43,445 nucleotides of DNA from Desulfuromonas sp. SDB. GTDB taxonomy: Bacteria; SDB-A. Every line of letters starts with the position of its first letter. Within the stretch, counting starts at the first letter, position 1. Under the pieces are notes generated by a model, which saw only the letters and a list, made by a program, of their open reading frames with translations, made no database searches and was not told where the DNA came from. Positions 19,021 through 43,304 of this stretch are shown here, in pieces. Location: positions 1 through 43,445 of the forward strand of contig LKUE01000391.1 in the NCBI GenBank assembly GCA_001412365.1, in the 5' to 3' direction. Made by a program: the position numbers and the translations under genes.

Positions 19021-20847
19021 TTGATGATGATGAAGAGTAAACAGGACAAAATCGGAGTTATTGATTACGGGGGGCAATATGCTCACCTCATAGCCAATGT
19101 GGTTAGATCAATAGGGGTTTATTCAGATATTCTACAGCCCCACCAGCTCAGAGATATCAGCCAGTACCGGGGCATTATTCTTTCGGGAAGTCCCGCCCTT
19201 AGCTCTGGAGACGAACTTTCAGTCAATCCCCTGATTTTCAAACTGAATATACCTGTACTGGGATTTTGCTTCGGTCACCAGGAAATAGCAAAATTCCACG
19301 GAGGCAAGGTGGAACATAAGGGTCAGGAATTTGGAAGAAGTTTGCTTAAACTGGTTAAAAAATCCCCAATATTCCTTAACTTGCCCGATGAACAAGTAGT
19401 GTGGATGAGTCATGGAGATGCGGTAACTGATCCCGGGGATATGGAAGAAATTGCTGTTTCTCTTGATCCTGACAACAATACACAAAAGTATTCTGCAATT
19501 TCAGATGAGAAACTCAGGCACTATGGATTCCAATTTCATCCCGAGGTAGATGATACTGAATATGGCAGGGAGATGATTGAAAATTATGTCATAGGCATTT
19601 GCGGATGCCGGAAGTCCTGGAATTCAGATTATATGGTGGAGGATATTGAAAATTCAATTAAAACTGAAGTAAAGACCAACCAGGTAGTTATGCTGGTTAG
19701 CGGAGGGGTTGATTCAACCGTCGCCGCAGTATTGCTCCACCGGGCTTTACCCGCCTCACAATTACATTTCATACATGTGGACACTGGTTTGATGAGACAT
19801 AAAGAAAGCGAACAAGTCACAGAATTGTTTGAGTCGGAAGGAATGCTGCCCAGCCTGGTAGTGGTGGATGCCTCTGAACAGTTTCTAAGGGAACTGCAGG
19901 GAGTTTATGATCCTGAACAAAAAAGAAACATAATCGGAAAAAACTTCATTGACCTTGTCAATGATGAAGTTGCTAAATTTGATCTGTCCACCGCCCTGCT
20001 TGCCCAGGGCACTATTTACCCCGATCGCATTGAAACCGGGGAGACTGAGCATGCCCATCGGATTAAAACTCATCATAACCGGATTCCTCAGATTGAAGCG
20101 ATGATCCGGCAGGGGTTGGTAATTGAACCGCTTAAAGACCTTTATAAGTTTGAAGTTAGAAAAGTCGGACAAACTCTGGGCATCCCCCAAACTATGCTTC
20201 AGCGTCATCCGTTTCCCGGACCCGGTCTGGGTATCCGCTGCATTTGTTCCCAGCCGGATAACCTCGATTATAAACAGATTACTGTGCTTAGAGCCAAGTT
20301 AAAGGATAACTGCGGGAAATATTATAGTGAAGTATTACCGGTGAAATCAGTAGGAGTGAAAGCAGATCAGCGAAGTTATGAATATCCTGGTCTGCTATGG
20401 AAAGAAAATTATTGCGGAGAGGAAATTGATGATATTGCTGCTAAAATATTTAGAAATGTTGATAATATAAATAGAATAATTTGGCTGGGGGGTAATCATG
20501 CCAATCCGCCAGTATCTATTCAGCCGGTATTAGCGGATATAAATGCAGCCAGGCTGGAAAAGTTAAGAGCAGCGGATAACCTGGCTCAACAGCTATTAGT
20601 AGAGCAGAACCTTTATGATGAAATCTGGCAGATGCCGGTTATTTCCCTTCCCCTGAAAATTAATCAGGTTTATGAGGATTTTATAATTTTAAGACCGGTA
20701 ATTTCAAAACGGGGAATGACCGCCCGTCCTTATTATCTTCCACCCCTTTACTTAAAAACTTTATCCGACAGGTTCAAACAGGTTGGAGTTAATTGGTGGG
20801 GAGTTGATGTTTCAACTAAACCTCCCGCCACCATTGAATGGGAGTGA
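19021..20847 (+). CDS. guaA: GMP synthase, long (eukaryotic-like) form
   Basis: GATase GFCFGHQE and FQFHPEV; PP-loop LVSGGVDSTVAA; RHPFPGPGLGIRC; C-terminal KPPATIEWE; 608 aa with extended dimerisation region. Confidence 0.93.
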   Translation: MMMMKSKQDKIGVIDYGGQYAHLIANVVRSIGVYSDILQPHQLRDISQYRGIILSGSPALSSGDELSVNPLIFKLNIPVLGFCFGHQEIAKFHGGKVEHKGQEFGRSLLKLVKKSPIFLNLPDEQVVWMSHGDAVTDPGDMEEIAVSLDPDNNTQKYSAISDEKLRHYGFQFHPEVDDTEYGREMIENYVIGICGCRKSWNSDYMVEDIENSIKTEVKTNQVVMLVSGGVDSTVAAVLLHRALPASQLHFIHVDTGLMRHKESEQVTELFESEGMLPSLVVVDASEQFLRELQGVYDPEQKRNIIGKNFIDLVNDEVAKFDLSTALLAQGTIYPDRIETGETEHAHRIKTHHNRIPQIEAMIRQGLVIEPLKDLYKFEVRKVGQTLGIPQTMLQRHPFPGPGLGIRCICSQPDNLDYKQITVLRAKLKDNCGKYYSEVLPVKSVGVKADQRSYEYPGLLWKENYCGEEIDDIAAKIFRNVDNINRIIWLGGNHANPPVSIQPVLADINAARLEKLRAADNLAQQLLVEQNLYDEIWQMPVISLPLKINQVYEDFIILRPVISKRGMTARPYYLPPLYLKTLSDRFKQVGVNWWGVDVSTKPPATIEWE

Positions 20848-20850
20848 GAA

Positions 20851-22806
20851 TTGCCAGGAAAAAACCGGAATAACAAAGTATACTGGTTAATCGTCTGTTT
20901 TCTCCTGCTGATCTTGCTTATCCCTTTTGGCTTAACTGCCCGGGCAGGAGGAGGGGGAAGTTATGGGGGAGGTGGAGGTGGTGGCGGATATTCGGGGGGA
21001 GGATATTCGGGAGGTGGTTACTCTTCCGGGTCCTCAGGAGGAGGGGGTGATCTCAGTCCCTGTTCCTGTGCCTGCATGATCATCATGCTGATTGTGTTCG
21101 TAGTTATATTTGCGGTAGTTCCCCGATTTCAGAACAAAAAAATGCGCAAGGCAAATTATTATCAGAAAAAATATCATGTTAATAAAGCAATTGAAAAAAT
21201 TAAAACCAGAGATGCTGATTTTAGTATTGAACAGTTCAAGAAGATGGCTGGCATGGCTTTTGTTGAAATCCAGCAAGCCTGGTCTGAACAGAATTTAACC
21301 TCAGTATCCAGGTTTATTTCAGATGGGATCAACCAGAGATTTTCTCTGCAGCTGGAAATGCAGAAATCGGAAGGATGGCGGAATATTGTTGAAAATGTTG
21401 AAATAAAAAACATGCGTATTGTTAATGTAGCCATCTATGAACGGTTTGAGCAAATTGATCTGGAGATCACTGCTAAAGCTAAAGATTACCGGGTATATTT
21501 AAACAGTGGAAAAATGATCAGAGGATCAATGCTGAAATCTGATTTCACTGAAATTTGGTCTTTTCTCCGCAGCGCTTCTGCAAAAACAGTTCAAGGGAAG
21601 GGATTGATTGCCGGCAGTTGTCCTAATTGCGGAGCATCTCTGCACATTACCGATGCAGGAAAGTGTCAGGCTTGCAATGCTTATATCCGGAGTACAAAAT
21701 ATGATTGGATATTATCTGAAATTACCCAGCAAATTGAGTGGCAGGTTCCACTTCCCGACCAGAATATTCCGGGAATTGCTGAAATTAAGAGCAGAGATCA
21801 ATTATTTTCCTCCCAGTATATTGAAGACCGTTGCTCGGTAATATTCTATGCCTGGCAATCCTCATTGTTCTACGTAACTTTAAAACCAATTCAAAAGGTT
21901 ACCGGAACAGGGTACATTGATAAAATTTCCTCAGTTGTGGATATTTCCAAAAATCCACAGAATCCAGTTTATTATAAAGATCCCGCGGTGGGTAAAGTTG
22001 AAATTCTGTGGGCGACCACTGATGAAAAATATGACTATGTTCATGTCATGGTTAAATGGTCAGGAACCAAGGTTAGCAGGGATCTGGGCAGTGGAAAGAT
22101 AAAAAATCTCTATCCCCAGGCAATATACCGTAGTGTGTTAATTTTAGCCAGACTCAAAGAAACTCAATCTCCTTCCGATATCCTTCATTCTGCTCACTGT
22201 CCCCACTGTGGGGCTCCGGAGCAGCCTGATCATCAGGGTAGATGCCCTTATTGCCAGACTCCCCTTAATGACGGCAGCAGGACTTGGATCCTCACTGACC
22301 TGTGCAGTTATTATCAATGGAGACAAAAATATGGCAGGGCTTATCAAAAATTTAAAAAACAGCTGTCAAAACCCCTGAGTATTCATCCCCAAGATTTAAT
22401 GGAAGGAATGATCATGATGATGAGTGCGGATGGAAAAATTGAAAATAAGGAAATCCGACTTCTTTCAAAATTTTCCGGACTTTACCGTATCTCTGACCAC
22501 CAGCTGGAAGAAATAACGGAAAGAGTAAAAAGAGGAGAGGGAACCTGGAAAATTCCCACCCGTCCTGAGGATCAGCAGAAATTTTTATCGGGGTTGGTAG
22601 ATATGTCTCTCAGTGATGGCACAATTTCTCGTTTTGAATACAAATTATTAAATCAGATAACTGCGAAGATGGGAATCAGCAATGCCAACCTGAAAAAATT
22701 GATAAAACAAAGACAAGCGGAATTGTTGAAATATCAATGGGAGGTTGAACAAACAAAAAGACAATCTACTCCTCCTCTCCCTCCCCCTCCTCCCCATTAC
22801 GTTTAG
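20851..22806 (+). CDS. Membrane-anchored Tim44-like / double zinc-ribbon / TerB-like protein (copy 1)
   Basis: N-terminal hydrophobic segment with ARA|GGG, Gly-rich loop, second TM, Tim44-like FKKMAGMAFVEIQQAWSEQNL, CPNC..CQAC and CPHC..CPYC ribbons, TerB-like repeats, PPLPPPPP tail. Confidence 0.8.
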   Translation: MPGKNRNNKVYWLIVCFLLLILLIPFGLTARAGGGGSYGGGGGGGGYSGGGYSGGGYSSGSSGGGGDLSPCSCACMIIMLIVFVVIFAVVPRFQNKKMRKANYYQKKYHVNKAIEKIKTRDADFSIEQFKKMAGMAFVEIQQAWSEQNLTSVSRFISDGINQRFSLQLEMQKSEGWRNIVENVEIKNMRIVNVAIYERFEQIDLEITAKAKDYRVYLNSGKMIRGSMLKSDFTEIWSFLRSASAKTVQGKGLIAGSCPNCGASLHITDAGKCQACNAYIRSTKYDWILSEITQQIEWQVPLPDQNIPGIAEIKSRDQLFSSQYIEDRCSVIFYAWQSSLFYVTLKPIQKVTGTGYIDKISSVVDISKNPQNPVYYKDPAVGKVEILWATTDEKYDYVHVMVKWSGTKVSRDLGSGKIKNLYPQAIYRSVLILARLKETQSPSDILHSAHCPHCGAPEQPDHQGRCPYCQTPLNDGSRTWILTDLCSYYQWRQKYGRAYQKFKKQLSKPLSIHPQDLMEGMIMMMSADGKIENKEIRLLSKFSGLYRISDHQLEEITERVKRGEGTWKIPTRPEDQQKFLSGLVDMSLSDGTISRFEYKLLNQITAKMGISNANLKKLIKQRQAELLKYQWEVEQTKRQSTPPLPPPPPHYV

Positions 22807-22943
22807 AACAATTAATTTAAAATAGTGTGGAATAAACTATATAGTTGCAGGTATACACTGTACAAAAATACGCTCAGGTTTTACAATAAATATTAAAAAA
22901 ACAGGATTTTAAACAAGTCATTTGTTAAATAAAGGAGTTACCA

Positions 22944-24875
22944 GTGCTGAGAAAAATATTGGTAGTAATTGGCTTAATTATTTTAATCAGTTATGGTTAT
23001 TCGGCATTGTGGGCTCGAGCAGGGGGAGGAGAATCATTTGGAGGAGGAGGGGGAGGTTCTTTTGGAGGAGATGGGGGAGGAGAAGGTATTGGCGCGCTGA
23101 TTTATCTTCTATTCTGGCTGGTGGTTAATTATCCCTGCATCGGCATACCCCTGGTAATTGCAGTAATTATTTTTTTAATTTTCGCTAATTTAAAGGGCAA
23201 AGGAAAGATAACTGATCGCAGACTTCGAAAATCGAATTTTTTTCAAAACCAGTATGAAGTTAATCAAGCCCTGGAAAAAATTAAACAACGGGATCCTAAT
23301 TTTAATATAGATAGTTTCAAACAAAGAGTATCCCGGGCTTTTTATTTGATTCAGACTGCCTGGAGTGAACAAAAGCTGACCAATGTTCACCGGTTTATAT
23401 CAGATGGAGTGGAAGAAAGATTTAATCTGCAGATTAAAATGCAGCAGGCAGAAGGGTGGAGGAATGTGATGGAGAATGTGAAAATTCAGAAAATTGAAGT
23501 GGTATCTATTGAATCCGATCAACACTTCGATACTATTCATCTGGCTATAACTGCAAGGGCAAAAGATTACAAGGTTGATTTAAAAACGGGGAGAACCCTG
23601 CCCCAGTCCAAAATCACTGAACCATTTACCGAGGTTTGGTCTTGGCTGAGAAAACCGGGAGTGAAGACAATCCGAGCTCAGGGAGCTATTGAAGGTAACT
23701 GCCCCAACTGTGCCGCTCCTCTGGATATCACTGATGCAGGTAAATGCAGGGCTTGCGGGGCATTCATCCGGAGTGGTGAATATGACTGGATTCTGTCGGA
23801 GATAACCCAGGAAAGCGAATGGGAAGTAACCGGAAAGAGTTCAGAGATACCCGGTTTTATAAATTTACAGCAAGTGGACCCCGGTTTTTCTGTTCAACAC
23901 ATTGAAGATAGAACTTCAGTGATATTCTACCGTTATCAGGCTGCTTTATTTAACCGCAGCTCCAAGGTGTTGAAGAAAGTAGTTTATTCCCCCGCTCTGG
24001 AGAGAATTATCCGGAGATTATCCGGGGTCCCCCAAACCTCAGTTGCCCGTTACTATAAGTTCCCTGCAATTGGAAAAGTAGAAGTACTGTGGATCAAGCC
24101 GGAAAGCGAATTAATTAAAATATTTGTTTTAGTAAAATGGTCGGGAAGTTTTGCTCAGCGTGATTTGAAAACCAACCAGATAAAATTGCTTTCCTCCAGA
24201 ACTATATATTCTGACATCTATACTTTGGTTCGGAAGATTAATGTCGCCTCACCTCATAATGCATTTAATTCTGCCCACTGCCCCAATTGCGGAGCTCCGG
24301 AAGTGCCTGACGGCACCGATAGCTGCCCTTACTGCGGCACGGTGCTAAATGATGGCAACCGCAGCTGGGTGCTTGCTGATATTGAAGAATTTACTATATG
24401 GCTCCAGAGTAACCGGGAGCAGTGGAAACAAGCCAGAGCCGGAGTAACTGCAGATATTACCGGAAGACCCAAAGCGTTAATTGAAGCATTGGCGATGATG
24501 ATGGCAAGCGATGGAGATATTGATCAGAGAGAATTAAAAATGCTGAAGAACTTTACCGGTAATTATCAGATTTCAGATTTGGAATTAAGACAGATAGTAG
24601 ACCGGGTTCAACAAGGGCAGGGTATTTGGAAGATTCCGGAAGATTACAATCAAGGAGTAGTGCTTTTATTTGGATTGATTGATATGGCATTGAGTGATGG
24701 ACGGATTTCTTCTCCGGAAAAACAATTGCTGGATAGTGTGGCTAAAAAATTGAATATTCCCTCAAATATCTTAAATCAGTGGATAAAAGACCGGCAGAGT
24801 TCGCTGATAGAATTCCAGAAAAATTATCGAAAATCAGACACTCCTATACCCCCACCCCCTCCACCTCAGCCTTGA
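22944..24875 (+). CDS. Membrane-anchored Tim44-like / double zinc-ribbon / TerB-like protein (copy 2, paralogue)
   Basis: Collinear with copy 1 over the whole length: ARA|GGG, Gly-rich loop, TM, Tim44-like, CPNC..CRAC, CPNC..CPYC, TerB-like, PIPPPPPP tail; GTG start with SD aaaggag. Confidence 0.8.
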   Translation: MLRKILVVIGLIILISYGYSALWARAGGGESFGGGGGGSFGGDGGGEGIGALIYLLFWLVVNYPCIGIPLVIAVIIFLIFANLKGKGKITDRRLRKSNFFQNQYEVNQALEKIKQRDPNFNIDSFKQRVSRAFYLIQTAWSEQKLTNVHRFISDGVEERFNLQIKMQQAEGWRNVMENVKIQKIEVVSIESDQHFDTIHLAITARAKDYKVDLKTGRTLPQSKITEPFTEVWSWLRKPGVKTIRAQGAIEGNCPNCAAPLDITDAGKCRACGAFIRSGEYDWILSEITQESEWEVTGKSSEIPGFINLQQVDPGFSVQHIEDRTSVIFYRYQAALFNRSSKVLKKVVYSPALERIIRRLSGVPQTSVARYYKFPAIGKVEVLWIKPESELIKIFVLVKWSGSFAQRDLKTNQIKLLSSRTIYSDIYTLVRKINVASPHNAFNSAHCPNCGAPEVPDGTDSCPYCGTVLNDGNRSWVLADIEEFTIWLQSNREQWKQARAGVTADITGRPKALIEALAMMMASDGDIDQRELKMLKNFTGNYQISDLELRQIVDRVQQGQGIWKIPEDYNQGVVLLFGLIDMALSDGRISSPEKQLLDSVAKKLNIPSNILNQWIKDRQSSLIEFQKNYRKSDTPIPPPPPPQP

Positions 24876-24987
24876 TAAAATCATGTTGAATAGCAATTTT
24901 GATTGTGATAATATTGGTCGGTTAGAAAATGGAGTTGCGAATTGTTAGGTTTGACAAAAGGGTACTGGAGTGTTCGTGATGCTTAGA

Positions 24988-25146
24988 TATGATTTGAGCC
25001 AACACCTTTCAATAGGGAATTCAGGTTCTGGAGGAACAAGCAAGCTCACCTGGAGTGAGATCCTTCGAACTTCAGACAGGATACCCACTTTACTGGAAGG
25101 TTCAAACTATTCTATCACACGGCATTCCGGTTCCCACCAAATCATA
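24988..25146 (+). ncRNA. Candidate structured RNA, possibly 6S RNA (ssrS)
   Basis: Intergenic; terminal 9-bp complement TATGATTTG (24988-24996)/CAAATCATA (25138-25146); local hairpins GTTC-TGGAG-GAAC and CTCAC-CTGGA-GTGAG; CCTTC/GAAGG stem; lies upstream of rny. Confidence 0.4.
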
Positions 25147-28712: not shown

Positions 28713-30100
28713 ATTCACCGGTTAAACCCATGGAATTATTAACGGTATCTTCAGTTAATCAAATGGCCAAAAAAATCATGGAACTGCAGATTGGATATAT
28801 TGCAGTGCAGGGGGAAATATCAAAAACCACCCTTCATTCCAGCGGCCATTTCTATTTTACTCTCAAAGATGATAAATCCAGTCTGGATGCAGTGTTATTC
28901 AAGAATAAAGTATATCAGATGTTTTCTAAAAATTTGTCTTTTACGGAAGTGGATAGTGAAAAATTGCCAAAATTAGGAGAGTTATGGATTTGTGAGGGAG
29001 TATTGACCATTTGGGAGAAAACGGGTAGATATATGTTTAAGGTAAACCAGGCAGTCCCCTCAGGCCGAGGAAAATTGTACCGGGATTTTCAACTTCTCAA
29101 GGAGAAATTGTATGCCCGGGGTTGGCTGAATCCGGAAAATAAAAAAAAAATACCCCCTTTCCCCCTGAAAGTTGGAGTTATTAGTTCTCCCACCGGAGCG
29201 GCAATCAGAGATATTATAAAAATTTATACCCGGAGATTTCCTGCTGCTGAAATTATTGTTTCTCCGGCTTTGATGCAGGGCAAACAGTGTGTTGACAGTA
29301 TATTGCAGGCATTAGATCGGATTAAGCAATTCCCGGTGGATTTAATCATCCTGACCAGGGGAGGAGGGAGCCCCGAAGATTTAGCTGAATTTAATGATGA
29401 ACGCTTGGCTCAGGCTGTTTTTCACCTGGAAATTCCAATTGTATCCGCAATTGGACATGAGATAGATCAAACCATTGTGGATTTAGTTGCCGATTTATCT
29501 GCTTCCACCCCTTCTGCCGCAGCTGAATTGGTTTTCCCGGATAGGGACAGTGTTCTAAGAAATTTAGATAGTAAAAAAAATCAGGTCAGAACCGCTGTAT
29601 TTTCTGTACTGGAAAAGCACAAAAAAAACATTGAACATCTTTCTGAAGTGTATGCATTTCGCATAGTTCCCGACCGGCTCAGAGAATTAAGAGTTACTGT
29701 AGACAATTACCGGGAAGTAATTGAAAAACAGCCCCTCCGGACTATTTCCTCTCTGCAGTTAAAACTACAGGTCCACCGAAGAAATTTCCAGGCAGGCAGA
29801 ATATTAAAGGAATTGAAAATCCGCAGAGAAAAGCTGGAATTAATAAATGATAAAATGATCCATAATATCAGGGGGAAAAATAAACAATGGAAGCAGAACT
29901 GCCGGTATTTCGGTAATCTTCTGGGCAGCCTTTCTCCTCAGTTGGTTTTAACCAAAGGTTATTCCATAGTAACTGACCATCAGGACAAGGTAATCACCCG
30001 GGGGAACTTGTTGAAAAAAGGAAAAAAGTATAAAATTAAATTTATTGATTCAACCTGGCTGATGAAGTCAGAGAAGGAGATAAGCAATCATGATAATTAA
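28709..30100 (+). CDS. xseA: Exodeoxyribonuclease VII large subunit
   Basis: OB-fold GEISKTTLHSSGHFYFTLKD, VGVISSPTGAAIRDI, LTRGGGSPEDLAEFNDE, SAIGHEIDQTI. Confidence 0.95.
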   Translation: MNSPVKPMELLTVSSVNQMAKKIMELQIGYIAVQGEISKTTLHSSGHFYFTLKDDKSSLDAVLFKNKVYQMFSKNLSFTEVDSEKLPKLGELWICEGVLTIWEKTGRYMFKVNQAVPSGRGKLYRDFQLLKEKLYARGWLNPENKKKIPPFPLKVGVISSPTGAAIRDIIKIYTRRFPAAEIIVSPALMQGKQCVDSILQALDRIKQFPVDLIILTRGGGSPEDLAEFNDERLAQAVFHLEIPIVSAIGHEIDQTIVDLVADLSASTPSAAAELVFPDRDSVLRNLDSKKNQVRTAVFSVLEKHKKNIEHLSEVYAFRIVPDRLRELRVTVDNYREVIEKQPLRTISSLQLKLQVHRRNFQAGRILKELKIRREKLELINDKMIHNIRGKNKQWKQNCRYFGNLLGSLSPQLVLTKGYSIVTDHQDKVITRGNLLKKGKKYKIKFIDSTWLMKSEKEISNHDN

Positions 30101-32447
30101 TATAGTTGTATTATTTTTGATGCTATGCAGTAAAAACGATCAGTTAGTGGTTTCTGCAGACACCTCTTTCTCATTTGAATTGCAGAGGGGAAGAGGTAAG
30201 TTCAAAATATTTGAGGATCAATGGTCTGATTTGGAATTATCTGTAATTCCTCAAGTTCCTTTTTCTGTATTTGATGAGGATCATAATCTGGTAGCTGCTA
30301 CCGATGACGGTTCAGTGCGTCTGAATACGTTCAGAGATTACTGGTTAACTGTTTCTTTCTCCGGTTTAGACGATTTAAAACTGAGAATTGACTTAAACCG
30401 GACCAATGATTACCGCAGGTTGACTTCAACCCCTGTGCAGGGTGAACTGGGTCCATCTCAACCTGCTGAGGTAATTGAATACGTAATCCCCCAAGATGGA
30501 AGATACCGGTTTGAATTAGATTCCCCTGACCGGGGCGGGGATATAGATTTAAACATCTATGTGGATAACTACAACTTAGCGGGATCAGGTGTTTCCCAAA
30601 CCAATCATGAACAGGTAAGTGTTGATGGGTTTTGTCAGGATACAATCAGAGCACTGATTTTTTTAAATGATCTGCAATCCAGGGTGAGGTGGGAATTAAA
30701 TATTGATCAGAACGATGAATTAACCGGTATATCAATTGGCCAGGCAGATATTTACCTCATGAATTATGAGCAGCCCCGGGATATCTATCTTCTTGATAAC
30801 ACCACATCTTATCCTGTTTTAATATATTTAAATTCTTCAGAGGATGTGGATCTCGATTTAATAGTTGAATATCAAGGGGAGAAATACAGTTCAACCTCCT
30901 ACAGTTCTATGGAGACCGTACTCATTCCCCCCCGGACCAGGGATATTAAAATTGTAGTGGAAGGATATCAACTAAATGAAACTAATCCCCGCTATACTTT
31001 AGAAGCCAGGGAAATTAAAAATTTCTACTCCTTTTCCACCGGTCATATTCAAACTCAGGTAGATCCGGAAAGCAGAGAAATAATTGGAATTGTCAACAGT
31101 TCACCGGGATTTAAGTATTTTGAAGTCAATTCCATTGAGAAACGGGATGTGGATATGATTATATTCAATCACTATGGAGTTTCTGATTTAAGCTTCAGCT
31201 CTCTGAATCCAAGGGAAGTTTCAGTACAGTGGATGGATTATGGAGATACTTTGTTCATATTGCCTATGCTCTACGACAGGTCTTCACCGGTGGACATCAT
31301 ATTCAGGGAAATAGACCCGGATACCCTACCTCGATTGACTGAAAATATGAATTTAGAAGATTTTGTAAGACCTCCTTATCAGGGGGTAAAAGTTTATCTT
31401 TTAGAATTCGAAAACAGGGGAACTGGAGTAATTACAGTGAGGGGAGAAAGTCACCGGGAGAGAGATGTGGATTTAATTGTAGCGGGTAGGGATTTCCACC
31501 GCCGATCGGAGGGGGAAGAAAATCCTACCGACCGGGCTTCAGATGAAACCATCCTGTTTTACGTCCATCCTGAGCAGGACTATCTGGCTGAGGTATACGC
31601 CTATGGACGGGGTGATCGCTGCCGATATCAGATATCCTCCCTGTTGATAGAAGATCAACAACTGCAATATACCTCTCAGCCCTCTATTTGGGCGCTGATT
31701 GTGGGTATTAGCGGATATCCCGGGGAGAGTGCACTGAATAGAGCCAGTCAGGATGCATTGGAGTTTTATCAGACTGTAGTTGAATCTGAAAATGTTGATC
31801 CTTCCCAGGTGGTTTTTCTAGCAGATGAGCAAGCTACCCGGGATAACATTATCGAAAACCTCAACCGTATTTCCACTTTGGCTAAACCGGGAGACCGCAT
31901 TATCTTTTTCTTTAGCGGACATGGCTGTCAGGAAAGATATCAGCAGGGAGAGTTGGAAGAAGATGGATTTGATGAAGGCATTTGCGGATATCCTCAACCG
32001 GGAAATGAAGACATTTTTGACGACGAGTTAAATGACCTGCTTCCGGATAATATTGAAGCCTGGATTTTTCTGGATGCATGTCATTCCGGAGGATTTGTTA
32101 AAGATCTTATGAATAAAAATAACCGGTTGATTATTACCGCCAGTGAGGAAGACCGGGAAGTCGGGGAAAGAGTGCTGACCCCCATATTGATAAGAGCAAT
32201 AAGAGGAAGGGCGGACAGCAACGATGATGGTTACATATCTGCCCGGGAGTTAATGGATTATGTGGGATATCATTGCCTGCATACTTGTCCGGAGTGTCTT
32301 TATGAATTTTCAGGTTCTGCTCCCCGCACTTGTCCTAATTGCGGGACTGAATTAACTGGCAGCAATAGACCGATGAATCCTGAACTGGATACTAATTTAG
32401 ATCCGCACCGGAAATTGTTTCGAATATATTCAGGAGGTAAGAATTGA
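30090..32447 (+). CDS. Secreted caspase-like (peptidase C14/orthocaspase) protein with EF-hand-like loop and C-terminal zinc ribbon
   Basis: N-terminal signal-like segment; caspase domain ALIVGISGYPG, FFFSGHGCQ (His), FLDACHSGG (Cys); DSNDDGYISARE; CPEC..CPNC. Confidence 0.88.
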   Translation: MIINIVVLFLMLCSKNDQLVVSADTSFSFELQRGRGKFKIFEDQWSDLELSVIPQVPFSVFDEDHNLVAATDDGSVRLNTFRDYWLTVSFSGLDDLKLRIDLNRTNDYRRLTSTPVQGELGPSQPAEVIEYVIPQDGRYRFELDSPDRGGDIDLNIYVDNYNLAGSGVSQTNHEQVSVDGFCQDTIRALIFLNDLQSRVRWELNIDQNDELTGISIGQADIYLMNYEQPRDIYLLDNTTSYPVLIYLNSSEDVDLDLIVEYQGEKYSSTSYSSMETVLIPPRTRDIKIVVEGYQLNETNPRYTLEAREIKNFYSFSTGHIQTQVDPESREIIGIVNSSPGFKYFEVNSIEKRDVDMIIFNHYGVSDLSFSSLNPREVSVQWMDYGDTLFILPMLYDRSSPVDIIFREIDPDTLPRLTENMNLEDFVRPPYQGVKVYLLEFENRGTGVITVRGESHRERDVDLIVAGRDFHRRSEGEENPTDRASDETILFYVHPEQDYLAEVYAYGRGDRCRYQISSLLIEDQQLQYTSQPSIWALIVGISGYPGESALNRASQDALEFYQTVVESENVDPSQVVFLADEQATRDNIIENLNRISTLAKPGDRIIFFFSGHGCQERYQQGELEEDGFDEGICGYPQPGNEDIFDDELNDLLPDNIEAWIFLDACHSGGFVKDLMNKNNRLIITASEEDREVGERVLTPILIRAIRGRADSNDDGYISARELMDYVGYHCLHTCPECLYEFSGSAPRTCPNCGTELTGSNRPMNPELDTNLDPHRKLFRIYSGGKN
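32214..32249 (+). other. EF-hand-like calcium-loop coding segment DSNDDGYISARE
   Basis: 12 residues with D1, N3, D5, G6, I8, S9, E12. Confidence 0.7.
32286..32346 (+). other. Zinc-ribbon coding segment CPECLYEFSGSAPRTCPNCG in the caspase ORF
   Basis: Two CPxC knuckles 12 residues apart, between the RELMDYV helix and the C-terminal end. Confidence 0.8.
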
Positions 32448-34234
32448 CAACGGAAGAGTTAAGGCAGGCTTATATTGAATTTTTTAAACTTAACCAGCAT
32501 AAACAAATTAGCGGTTTTTCTTTAATTCCTGAAAATGACCCCACCGTATTGTTTACCACTGCAGGGATGCATCCCCTGGTTCCTTATCTGATGGGAGCTG
32601 AACATCCCTGCGGGAAAAGACTGTGTAATTGGCAGAAATGTGTCCGCACCGGGGATATTGATGAAGTTGGTGATTCCCAGCATTTAACCTTTTTTGAGAT
32701 GTTGGGTAACTGGTCTTTGGGGGATTATTTTAAAGATCAAGCCATTGAGATGAGTTACCAGTTTTTGACTGATTCCTCTTGGCTGGGAATAAATCCTGAT
32801 AAATTATTTATCACTTTGTTCCAAGGAGACCAGGTTGCTCCCCGGGATGAACAATCAGCAGAACTCTGGATTAAACAGGGCATTGAGCAAGGACATATCT
32901 TCTTTTTGGGAAAGAAGGACAACTGGTGGGGCCCGGCAGGAAAAACCGGACCTTGCGGACCGGATACCGAAATGTTTTACGACACCGGATTACCTTTCTG
33001 CAGCGCTAACTGTCAGCCCGGATGTCCCTGCGGCAAGTATGTGGAAATATGGAACGATGTGTTCATGGAATACGATAAGCAATCAAACGGTTCTTATGCA
33101 GAGTTATCCCAGAAGAATGTAGATACGGGGATGGGATTGGAGAGGACTTCCGCCACTCTCAACGGTTATTCATCGGTTTATCAAATTGATAAATTCCAAC
33201 CCATTATTGAGGTTATTGAAAAGCTGTCCAAAAGAAAATTTATGGAAAATAAAGAGGATACGGTTTCGATGAGAGTAATTGCTGATCACATCAGGGCAGC
33301 GGTATTTATTATGGGTGATCCTCTTGGCGTTCCTCCCTCTAATCTGGATCAGGGATACATTGTGAGAAGACTTATCCGCAGGGCGATGAGACATGCTATG
33401 CAGCTGGAGATTAATGATCAGCTGGGAGACAGTTTAACCGACCTAATCATTGAATTAAATCCGGTTTATCCTGAATTAAGTGAACGAAGGAATTTCATTT
33501 TGGAATCATTCAGGGAAGAAGAGCAGAGATTTAAAAAGACCCTTAACCGGGGTTTAACTGAATTAAAAAAAATTCTGCCCCAGGTATTACAATCAAAACA
33601 GAAAGTGATTTCCGGCAGAGTTGCGTTTAAGCTGTACGATACTTACGGATTCCCTCTGGAGATGACTGAAGAACTGGCTAAAGAGCATGGAGTTGAAGTT
33701 GACCAGGAAGGATTTACCCGGGCATTTGAAAAACACCAGGAAAAATCCCGCAGCGGAAGTGAGTTGAGATTTAAAGGGGGACTTGCCGATGCCAGTGAAC
33801 AGACCCGTAAACTTCACACTGCTACTCATTTACTGCACCAGGCATTGAGGATGGTGTTAGGGGAACATGTGCAGCAGAAAGGTTCCAATATCACCCCGGA
33901 AAGGCTGAGATTTGATTTCAGCCATCCTCAGCCCATGACCAAACAGGAAATTGAACAAGTTGAAAAAATTGTGAATGAGGTAATCCAGAAGGATTTGCCT
34001 ATCAGCTGTGATCTGATGACCTTGGATGAAGCGGAGAATAAAGGCGCTATCGCTTTATTTGTGGACAAGTATTCCCAACAGGTAAAAGTATATTCAGTGG
34101 GGGATTTTTCCAAGGAGGTATGCGGAGGTCCCCATGTGGACCGTACCGGTGAATTGGGGAGATTTTCCATAATCAAGGAGCAATCCTCTTCGGCAGGAGT
34201 CCGCAGAATTAAGGCGATTTTATCATCTGAATAA
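32444..34234 (+). CDS. alaS: Alanyl-tRNA synthetase, short form (catalytic and editing regions, no C-Ala/DHHA1 region)
   Basis: FTTAGMHPLVPYLMG, GPCGPDTEMFYD, RRLIRRAMRHA, editing HTATHLLHQALR and CGGPHV; ends at RRIKAILSSE. Confidence 0.85.
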   Translation: MTTEELRQAYIEFFKLNQHKQISGFSLIPENDPTVLFTTAGMHPLVPYLMGAEHPCGKRLCNWQKCVRTGDIDEVGDSQHLTFFEMLGNWSLGDYFKDQAIEMSYQFLTDSSWLGINPDKLFITLFQGDQVAPRDEQSAELWIKQGIEQGHIFFLGKKDNWWGPAGKTGPCGPDTEMFYDTGLPFCSANCQPGCPCGKYVEIWNDVFMEYDKQSNGSYAELSQKNVDTGMGLERTSATLNGYSSVYQIDKFQPIIEVIEKLSKRKFMENKEDTVSMRVIADHIRAAVFIMGDPLGVPPSNLDQGYIVRRLIRRAMRHAMQLEINDQLGDSLTDLIIELNPVYPELSERRNFILESFREEEQRFKKTLNRGLTELKKILPQVLQSKQKVISGRVAFKLYDTYGFPLEMTEELAKEHGVEVDQEGFTRAFEKHQEKSRSGSELRFKGGLADASEQTRKLHTATHLLHQALRMVLGEHVQQKGSNITPERLRFDFSHPQPMTKQEIEQVEKIVNEVIQKDLPISCDLMTLDEAENKGAIALFVDKYSQQVKVYSVGDFSKEVCGGPHVDRTGELGRFSIIKEQSSSAGVRRIKAILSSE

Positions 34235-42009: not shown

Positions 42010-42423
42010 ATGTGGTTTAGCGATGACTACTATTATCCACTGAGAGAATTTAAAGATCTTCAGCGGAGGTTAGATCAGTTATTTGAAGGTAACCGTAGAG
42101 GTACCAGTTTCCCCCTGTGCAATATCAGCACTGACCAGGAGAAAATTTACCTTAATTTTCTGATTCCCGGAGTGAATCAGGAAGATATTAACTTAACCAC
42201 CACCAATGATTCTTTAGATATCGAAGTGGAAAAAAAATCTTGTAAGGAACAGCAGGATTGCGTGAGAGAGGAGAGAATCAGCGGAAAATTTAAAAGAGCC
42301 ATTAATCTTCCTTACCACATAGATACTGATAAAACCGAAGCTTCTTATCGTAATGGAATTTTATCAGTAACTTTAATCCGTTCTGATCAAGATAAACCTA
42401 AGACTATTGCAATTAAATCCTAG
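42010..42423 (+). CDS. Hsp20/alpha-crystallin family small heat shock protein 1
   Basis: IPGVNQEDINLTTTNDSLDIEVEKK, A/LxxxGxLxV-like YRNGILSVTL, C-terminal IAI. Confidence 0.88.
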   Translation: MWFSDDYYYPLREFKDLQRRLDQLFEGNRRGTSFPLCNISTDQEKIYLNFLIPGVNQEDINLTTTNDSLDIEVEKKSCKEQQDCVREERISGKFKRAINLPYHIDTDKTEASYRNGILSVTLIRSDQDKPKTIAIKS

Positions 42424-42432
42424 GAGGAAAAA

Positions 42433-42801
42433 ATGGAAAAGAAAATAGAAAAACAAAATCAATCAGCTAAAAAAGTATACCGTCCAACTACAGATATTTA
42501 CACCAATGAAGATGGTTTTATTCTGTATTTGGATGTACCTGGCTGTGATCAAGATGATGTCAATATCAATGTGGAAAACAATATATTGAATATCAAAGCG
42601 GAGCCGAAGAATGAAGCTGAATCTAAAACTGATTTGATTTATCAGGAATTTGAACTGGGTACTTATGAGCGGACTTTTACTTTACCCCGGAAAACTGATG
42701 TAAATAAAATCGAAGCTTCCATGAAGGATGGAACCCTTAAAGTGGTGCTTCCATTTTCAGAAGAAGTTAAGCCGAAGAAAATTGAAATTAAGAAATCATA
42801 A
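42433..42801 (+). CDS. Hsp20/alpha-crystallin family small heat shock protein 2
   Basis: DVPGCDQDDVNINVENNILNIKAE, MKDGTLKVVLP, C-terminal IEI. Confidence 0.92.
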   Translation: MEKKIEKQNQSAKKVYRPTTDIYTNEDGFILYLDVPGCDQDDVNINVENNILNIKAEPKNEAESKTDLIYQEFELGTYERTFTLPRKTDVNKIEASMKDGTLKVVLPFSEEVKPKKIEIKKS

Positions 42802-42812
42802 GGAGGTCTGAA

Positions 42813-43304
42813 ATGGCTTTTAAAAACTTAATTCCGTGGCAGAGAGGGAATTCAGGCATTCAGGATTTTCAGCATTCTCCTTTTTACAGCTTAAGAGATG
42901 AGATGAATAAGATGTTTGAGGATTTTTTCAAGGATTTTGATTTAAACCTCCCTCAATCTTATTCATCCGCAAAATTTAATCCCAGCGTAAATGTAGCTGA
43001 AGATAAGGACAAAATCGAAATCACTGCTGAACTTCCGGGAATGGATGAAAAAGATGTGGAGCTCACTCTGTCCGAAAATAAACTGACTATAAGCGGAGAA
43101 AAAAAAGAAGAAGTGAAAAAGGAAAAAGAGAACTATCATTACTTGGAAAGAAAAAGCGGTTATTTCCGCCGTACCATCCAACTGCCGGTGGAGATAAATA
43201 CTGAACAGGCTGAAGCTGAATTCAACAAAGGTGTGTTGAAGGTTATCCTGCCTAAATCAAAACAAGCTGAAAAAATAAAGAAGATTCAAATTAAATCTGA
43301 ATAA
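42813..43304 (+). CDS. Hsp20/alpha-crystallin family small heat shock protein 3
   Basis: ELPGMDEKDVELTLSENKLTISGEKK, FNKGVLKVILPK, C-terminal IQI. Confidence 0.95.
   Translation: MAFKNLIPWQRGNSGIQDFQHSPFYSLRDEMNKMFEDFFKDFDLNLPQSYSSAKFNPSVNVAEDKDKIEITAELPGMDEKDVELTLSENKLTISGEKKEEVKKEKENYHYLERKSGYFRRTIQLPVEINTEQAEAEFNKGVLKVILPKSKQAEKIKKIQIKSE

Follow-up and report, generated by a model that had tools for sequence, protein, structure and literature searches.

Bacterial Tim44-like proteins (PF04280, Tim44_TimA_adap NF033779, TimA NF033778), which to our knowledge have no settled function, carry a signal-like segment, a Gly/Ser-rich loop, a hydrophobic stretch and a Tim44 domain that ends in WxLxxIxQ. 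The TerB family (PF05099), DUF533 and the TerB domain of DjlA, a protein that joins a TM, TerB and a J domain, consist of an acidic helical domain with two halves. The mitochondrial Tim44 C-terminal domain and mL45/Mba1 are single domains, soluble or peripheral, and we know of no inserted zinc ribbon in either. At membranes, the Tim44 fold serves Hsp70 recruitment to TIM23 and mitoribosome anchoring (PMC9695410, PMC11452304), and mitochondrial Tim44 scaffolds Hsp70 together with the zinc protein Tim15 (PMC9695410). PspA of B. subtilis is brought to the membrane by YdjG, YdjH (TPM) and YdjI (SPFH), and YdjG itself comprises two zinc ribbons, an NTF2-like fold and a TM (PMC11237479, PMC8581546).

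The stretch of 43,445 nucleotides analysed here (the window) is contig C391 (LKUE01000391.1) of the 3.1-Mb draft genome of Desulfuromonas sp. SDB (G000). The sequence-only reading had placed two paralogous ORFs at 20851-24875; these coordinates were right, and the two genes are adjacent on the same strand and encode proteins that are 44% identical over 624 aa (E 4e-177). Both proteins resemble the bacterial Tim44-like proteins in all the elements listed above, and differ from them in having two Tim44 repeats, each with a ribbon built into it, and a TerB domain at the C-terminal end; in the two NCBIfam families, TimA and Tim44_TimA_adap, ORF1 scored 49.8 bits against a cut-off of 80 and 23.2 bits against a cut-off of 200, well short of both, and ORF2 was likewise below. 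With the mitochondrial Tim44 C-terminal domain and mL45/Mba1 they share the fold and, by analogy, may share the role of a membrane-side scaffold, while their TerB domain has the acidic two-half helical form of its family, from which it differs in being fused to Tim44 modules and in lying outside a ter operon. The features of the locus are as follows.

19021 to 20847, + strand: guaA, the upstream neighbour
20851 to 22806, + strand: ORF1, 651 aa, membrane-anchored protein with two Tim44-plus-ribbon units followed by TerB
20878 to 21120, + strand: ORF1 membrane region, signal-like aa 10-28, Gly-rich loop aa 33-66, TM aa 72-90, then +5 net charge
21181 to 21729, + strand: ORF1 repeat 1, Tim44-like fold, ribbon 1 (C257/C260/C272/C275) inserted before the last strand
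21760 to 22320, + strand: ORF1 repeat 2, diverged Tim44-like fold, ribbon 2 (C450/C453/C465/C468) inserted before the last strand
22387 to 22734, + strand: ORF1 TerB domain, two D-G-x5-E halves
22944 to 24875, + strand: ORF2, 643 aa, paralogue of ORF1
22956 to 23192, + strand: ORF2 membrane region, signal-like aa 5-23, Gly-rich loop aa 27-50, TM aa 65-83, then +6 net charge
23262 to 23819, + strand: ORF2 repeat 1, Tim44-like fold, ribbon 1 (C253/C256/C268/C271) inserted
23856 to 24383, + strand: ORF2 repeat 2, Tim44-like fold, ribbon 2 (C446/C449/C461/C464) inserted
24468 to 24779, + strand: ORF2 TerB domain (Pfam, model)

No characterised family with this architecture was found, in keeping with the earlier description of the proteins as a candidate uncharacterised module. 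The open-access literature searched yielded no paper on the ribbon-in-Tim44 repeat or on its fusion to TerB and nothing relevant on bacterial Tim44-like proteins; a 2012 comparative study of Ter systems, cited in PMC4012209 as Anantharaman et al., may mention TerB fusions. The architecture, built of known domains, is apparently undescribed.

ORF1 starts with TTG, 3 bp past the guaA stop, with GGGAG upstream, and ORF2 starts with GTG, preceded by AAGGAG; given these start codons and upstream motifs, both ORFs look translated, and translation of ORF1 is probably coupled to that of guaA. The position of guaA is conserved in 4/4 genomes of the window's phylum, which we take as synteny only and to which we attach no functional link. 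The gene-free gap downstream of ORF2 holds a 6S RNA at 24959-25137 on the + strand (Rfam RF00013, 89.5 bits, E 2.2e-18). Further along the + strand of the window are a 785-aa caspase-like (GHG / DACHSGG) peptidase with a C-terminal CPxC..CPNC zinc ribbon (30090-32447), an alanyl-tRNA synthetase-like ORF of just 596 aa, apparently without the C-terminal domain (32444-34234), and three tandem Hsp20-type small heat-shock genes (42010-43304).

Hydropathy analysis gave two segments per protein, a signal-like one that ends at ARA|GGG and, beyond the Gly-rich loop, a single TM, which confirmed the N-terminal order first read from the letters, and hydropathy and charge together support membrane linkage of both proteins well. 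The positive net charge after the TM argues that the bulk of each protein faces the cytosol, and an N-out/C-in topology is suggested by hydropathy and charge; the cytosolic part carries a net charge of +21 in ORF1 and +9 in ORF2. The signal-like segment, R-x-GGG and the Gly-rich loop are conserved in nearly all of 28 homologues. Two TerB-bearing relatives (L049:7088-9478 and L050:7946-10303) have a multi-TM N-terminus in place of the signal and Gly-rich loop.

PF04280 (Tim44) matched ORF1 at aa 111-243 (E 2e-20, 73.9 bits) and ORF2 at aa 107-237 (E 1.4e-19, 71.1 bits), both above the Pfam gathering cut-off of 29.6, which bears out the original Tim44 assignment, and it matched 28/28 homologues. 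What had been left as an unnamed second domain is present, but it is a second, diverged repeat of the Tim44 type rather than a distinct domain, as argued by three comparisons. When the two halves of the alignment of 28 full-length homologues (A4) were compared as profiles, repeat 1 and repeat 2 aligned end to end over 177 of ~185 columns (probability 99.9, E 1.8e-35), the Tim44 parts without the ribbon still aligned (probability 99.0, E 3.8e-18), and control comparisons against the TerB part gave 0.1-0.5% probability. Independently, an HMM from eight plain single-domain bacterial Tim44 proteins found its predicted position in repeat 2 in the majority of homologues, for the most part with weak scores (E 1.6e-6 to 0.04 in most), and the single-repeat relatives L056 and L058 aligned by BLAST to both halves of ORF2.

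Plain Tim44 proteins end with the strand FxEYWTFxR, a short turn and the strand WxLxxIxQ. In each repeat of ORF1 and ORF2 the alignment, and for ORF2 also the model, places a CxxC..CxxC ribbon after the FTExW strand and before the closing WxLxxIxQ strand, and together they show each ribbon in the place of the loop of the predicted last beta hairpin. The ribbons (CPNC..CQAC and CPHC..CPYC in ORF1, CPNC..CRAC and CPNC..CPYC in ORF2) are real, as had been noticed, but they lie inside the Tim44 fold and not between domains. None of the eight ribbon cysteines varies in 28/28 homologues, nor does either of the two DWxL-type tryptophans, and Pfam zinc-ribbon matches at the cysteine clusters are weak. 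The invariance of the cysteines makes the proposed metal binding likely, with zinc as the predicted metal. Cysteines of the ribbon type usually hold structural zinc, and the zinc of ORF1 and ORF2 would likewise be structural rather than sensory.

With an alignment of 5 sequences AlphaFold2 reached a pLDDT of 57, and 28 sequences were used instead, which gave a model of ORF2 aa 88-643 with a mean pLDDT of 85 and a pTM of 0.73. The model runs helix-helix-beta-beta-beta-[ribbon]-beta twice and then into a helical TerB end. Its leading matches among solved structures include mitoribosomal mL45 (chains up to TMt 0.69) and human and yeast Tim44 (TMt 0.63 for 2cw9), at an identity of only about 10-16%, followed lower down by the inter-membrane domains of the plastid-division proteins ARC6/PARC6; a search of a viral fold library returned nothing at E below 0.001. 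The mL45 matches raise the possibility of a tether that serves membrane-protein insertion at the ribosome or translocon, an Mba1/mL45 analogue whose Tim44 domains would keep ribosomes close to the insertase while its ribbons would touch rRNA or r-proteins; the net positive cytosolic part agrees with such a role, as does the finding that no genome of one phylum lacks a match (see below). However, the likeness to mL45 is no closer than that to Tim44 or ARC6/PARC6, and no translation-gene context was found beyond lineage-specific synteny, so we consider a tether unlikely.

PF05099 (TerB) matched ORF1 (E 1.6e-8, 35.3 bits) and ORF2 (E 6.4e-7, 30.1 bits) above the gathering cut-off of 24.4, and the TerB part matches the solved TerB-like structures 2ou3 and 2h5n by sequence, so the TerB assignment holds; the repeats formerly read there correspond to a single TerB domain made up of two acidic D-G-x5-E halves. 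The polyproline tail that follows is present in both ORFs, but it is confined to the window's own phylum and is absent as a conserved trait in the homologues. A weak match of the TerB part to PDC-S48 (defence; E 1e-3) was rejected. TerB homology and the invariance of these acidic motifs (D/E 523, 530, 585 and 592 in 28/28 homologues) would suit the metal or tellurite sensor that the sequence-only reading had proposed. The window genome, however, contains no TerD and no TerB match besides ORF1 and ORF2, no Ter neighbours were seen near the two genes, and the ribbons look structural; we therefore rejected a ter-operon reading and regard sensing as very unlikely.

All 4 genomes examined of the window's phylum carry the family, and the other three (G001-G003) have a single copy beside guaA and rny. 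The architecture also has a match in 42/42 genomes of one other phylum, in most members of one large-genome family and in a scattered set in a third phylum, and outside the window's phylum the full architecture is usually single-copy. Since the in-phylum relatives are single-copy and carriers in the other phyla usually are, the suggestion that the two proteins act as a pair was not borne out. The tree places ORF1 as the sister of a group formed by ORF2 and the three in-phylum relatives (95/88), which fits either a duplication inside the phylum followed by a loss in the other genus, or a fast-evolving ORF1. Of the two copies, ORF2 is the nearer to the single-copy proteins of G001-G003, and the branch of ORF1 is twice as long as that of ORF2. 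TerB-less cousins have one or two Tim44-ribbon units, and two or three of their genes sometimes stand in tandem (L166, L168, L169, L170); a plasmid collection gave one partial match, annotated as 'TIM44-like domain-containing protein'.

No conserved cross-phylum gene neighbour was found for the TerB-bearing form. A TPM-related gene lies directly or close upstream of TerB-less cousins at six loci, four from one family, L185 from another phylum and L052 by BLAST without Pfam support, in up to three lineages. The TerB-bearing L164 shares its strand with the adjoining SPFH/GYF gene and, further on, a CoaBC-like gene and then DnaK. At L043, L044, L153, L154, L161 and L162 the gene lies beside LarA-like and zinc-ribbon histidine-kinase-like genes, an arrangement conserved within that phylum only. 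The TPM and SPFH neighbours would be expected of an envelope-stress receptor of the Psp/YdjGHI type that recruits SPFH, TPM or AAA proteins to damaged membrane, and the Tim44-ribbon family with its TPM and SPFH neighbours brings together the parts that make up YdjG/H/I, namely zinc ribbons with an NTF2-like fold and a TM, a TPM protein and an SPFH (band-7) protein. YdjG/YdjH nevertheless differ from ORF1 and ORF2 in belonging to another, YpeB-related NTF2-like family and in the order of their parts, and PspA was not found in 7/13 carriers tested. In the window genome TPM gave no match and PspA no more than a 21-bit sub-threshold fragment, so the likeness to YdjG is one of analogy and not of membership, and a receptor of this type seems improbable.

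The DnaK gene of L164, two genes beyond the SPFH neighbour, would instead suit a membrane Hsp70 adaptor, as would the roles of mitochondrial Tim44/Tim15 and the match of the TerB part to the DjlA model (E 1e-6, below the cut-off). Set against this, no J domain was found and DnaK proximity was seen at a single locus, which makes an Hsp70 adaptor a distant prospect. An apparent DnaK cluster at four loci was rejected as a BLAST-chaining artefact: three of the proteins are FHA-like, and DnaK is present only at L164.

Of the sensor or scaffold offered by the first reading, the scaffold is our best guess, and we tentatively put it at a little under an even chance that ORF1 and ORF2 are cytosol-facing, membrane-anchored, zinc-stabilised scaffolds or adaptors of the Tim44/mL45/YdjG kind, with TerB as the regulatory or docking end. 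A match to the architecture in each of the 42 genomes of that other phylum points to a core role, and, given what the Tim44 fold is known to do at membranes, a docking platform at the membrane is the most parsimonious reading. The Tim44 and TerB matches, the second Tim44 repeat with the ribbon in each hairpin, the predicted topology and the invariance of ribbon cysteines and TerB acids across phyla also speak for a scaffold. By analogy, a scaffold is favoured by nearest solved folds that include the mL45 and Tim44 C-terminal domains, which are membrane-side anchors or scaffolds, and by TPM genes beside the TerB-less cousins and SPFH at L164, which are parts of PspA-YdjGHI recruitment. Against it stand the lack of a conserved cross-phylum neighbour of the TerB-bearing form and the use of NTF2-type folds as enzymes as well. 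In such a scaffold, the signal-like segment, exposed Gly-rich loop and single TM would hold two rigid Tim44-type (NTF2-fold) modules at the inner face of the cytoplasmic membrane, and the structural ribbon in the last hairpin of each module would widen its interaction surface. Like Tim44 and mL45/Mba1, the Tim44 faces may bind to lipid of the membrane, to a machine within it or to both, and the acidic C-terminal TerB may dock or regulate a cytosolic partner. In the lineage of the window, gene duplication and divergence of ORF1 would have produced a likely partner or specialised copy.

A broader proposal, that this multi-phylum family of ribbon-grafted tandem Tim44 folds is a core docking platform for the ribosome, an insertase or Hsp70, we hold to be doubtful; if true, a single bacterial polypeptide would be the counterpart of the mitochondrial Tim44/Tim15/mL45 toolkit. 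The inserted-ribbon arrangement offers a precise structural definition by which the family may be named. It occurs in every examined genome of one phylum and in most members of the large-genome carrier family, which may include genetically tractable species, so that a core role of the Tim44 fold at membranes could be put to direct test.
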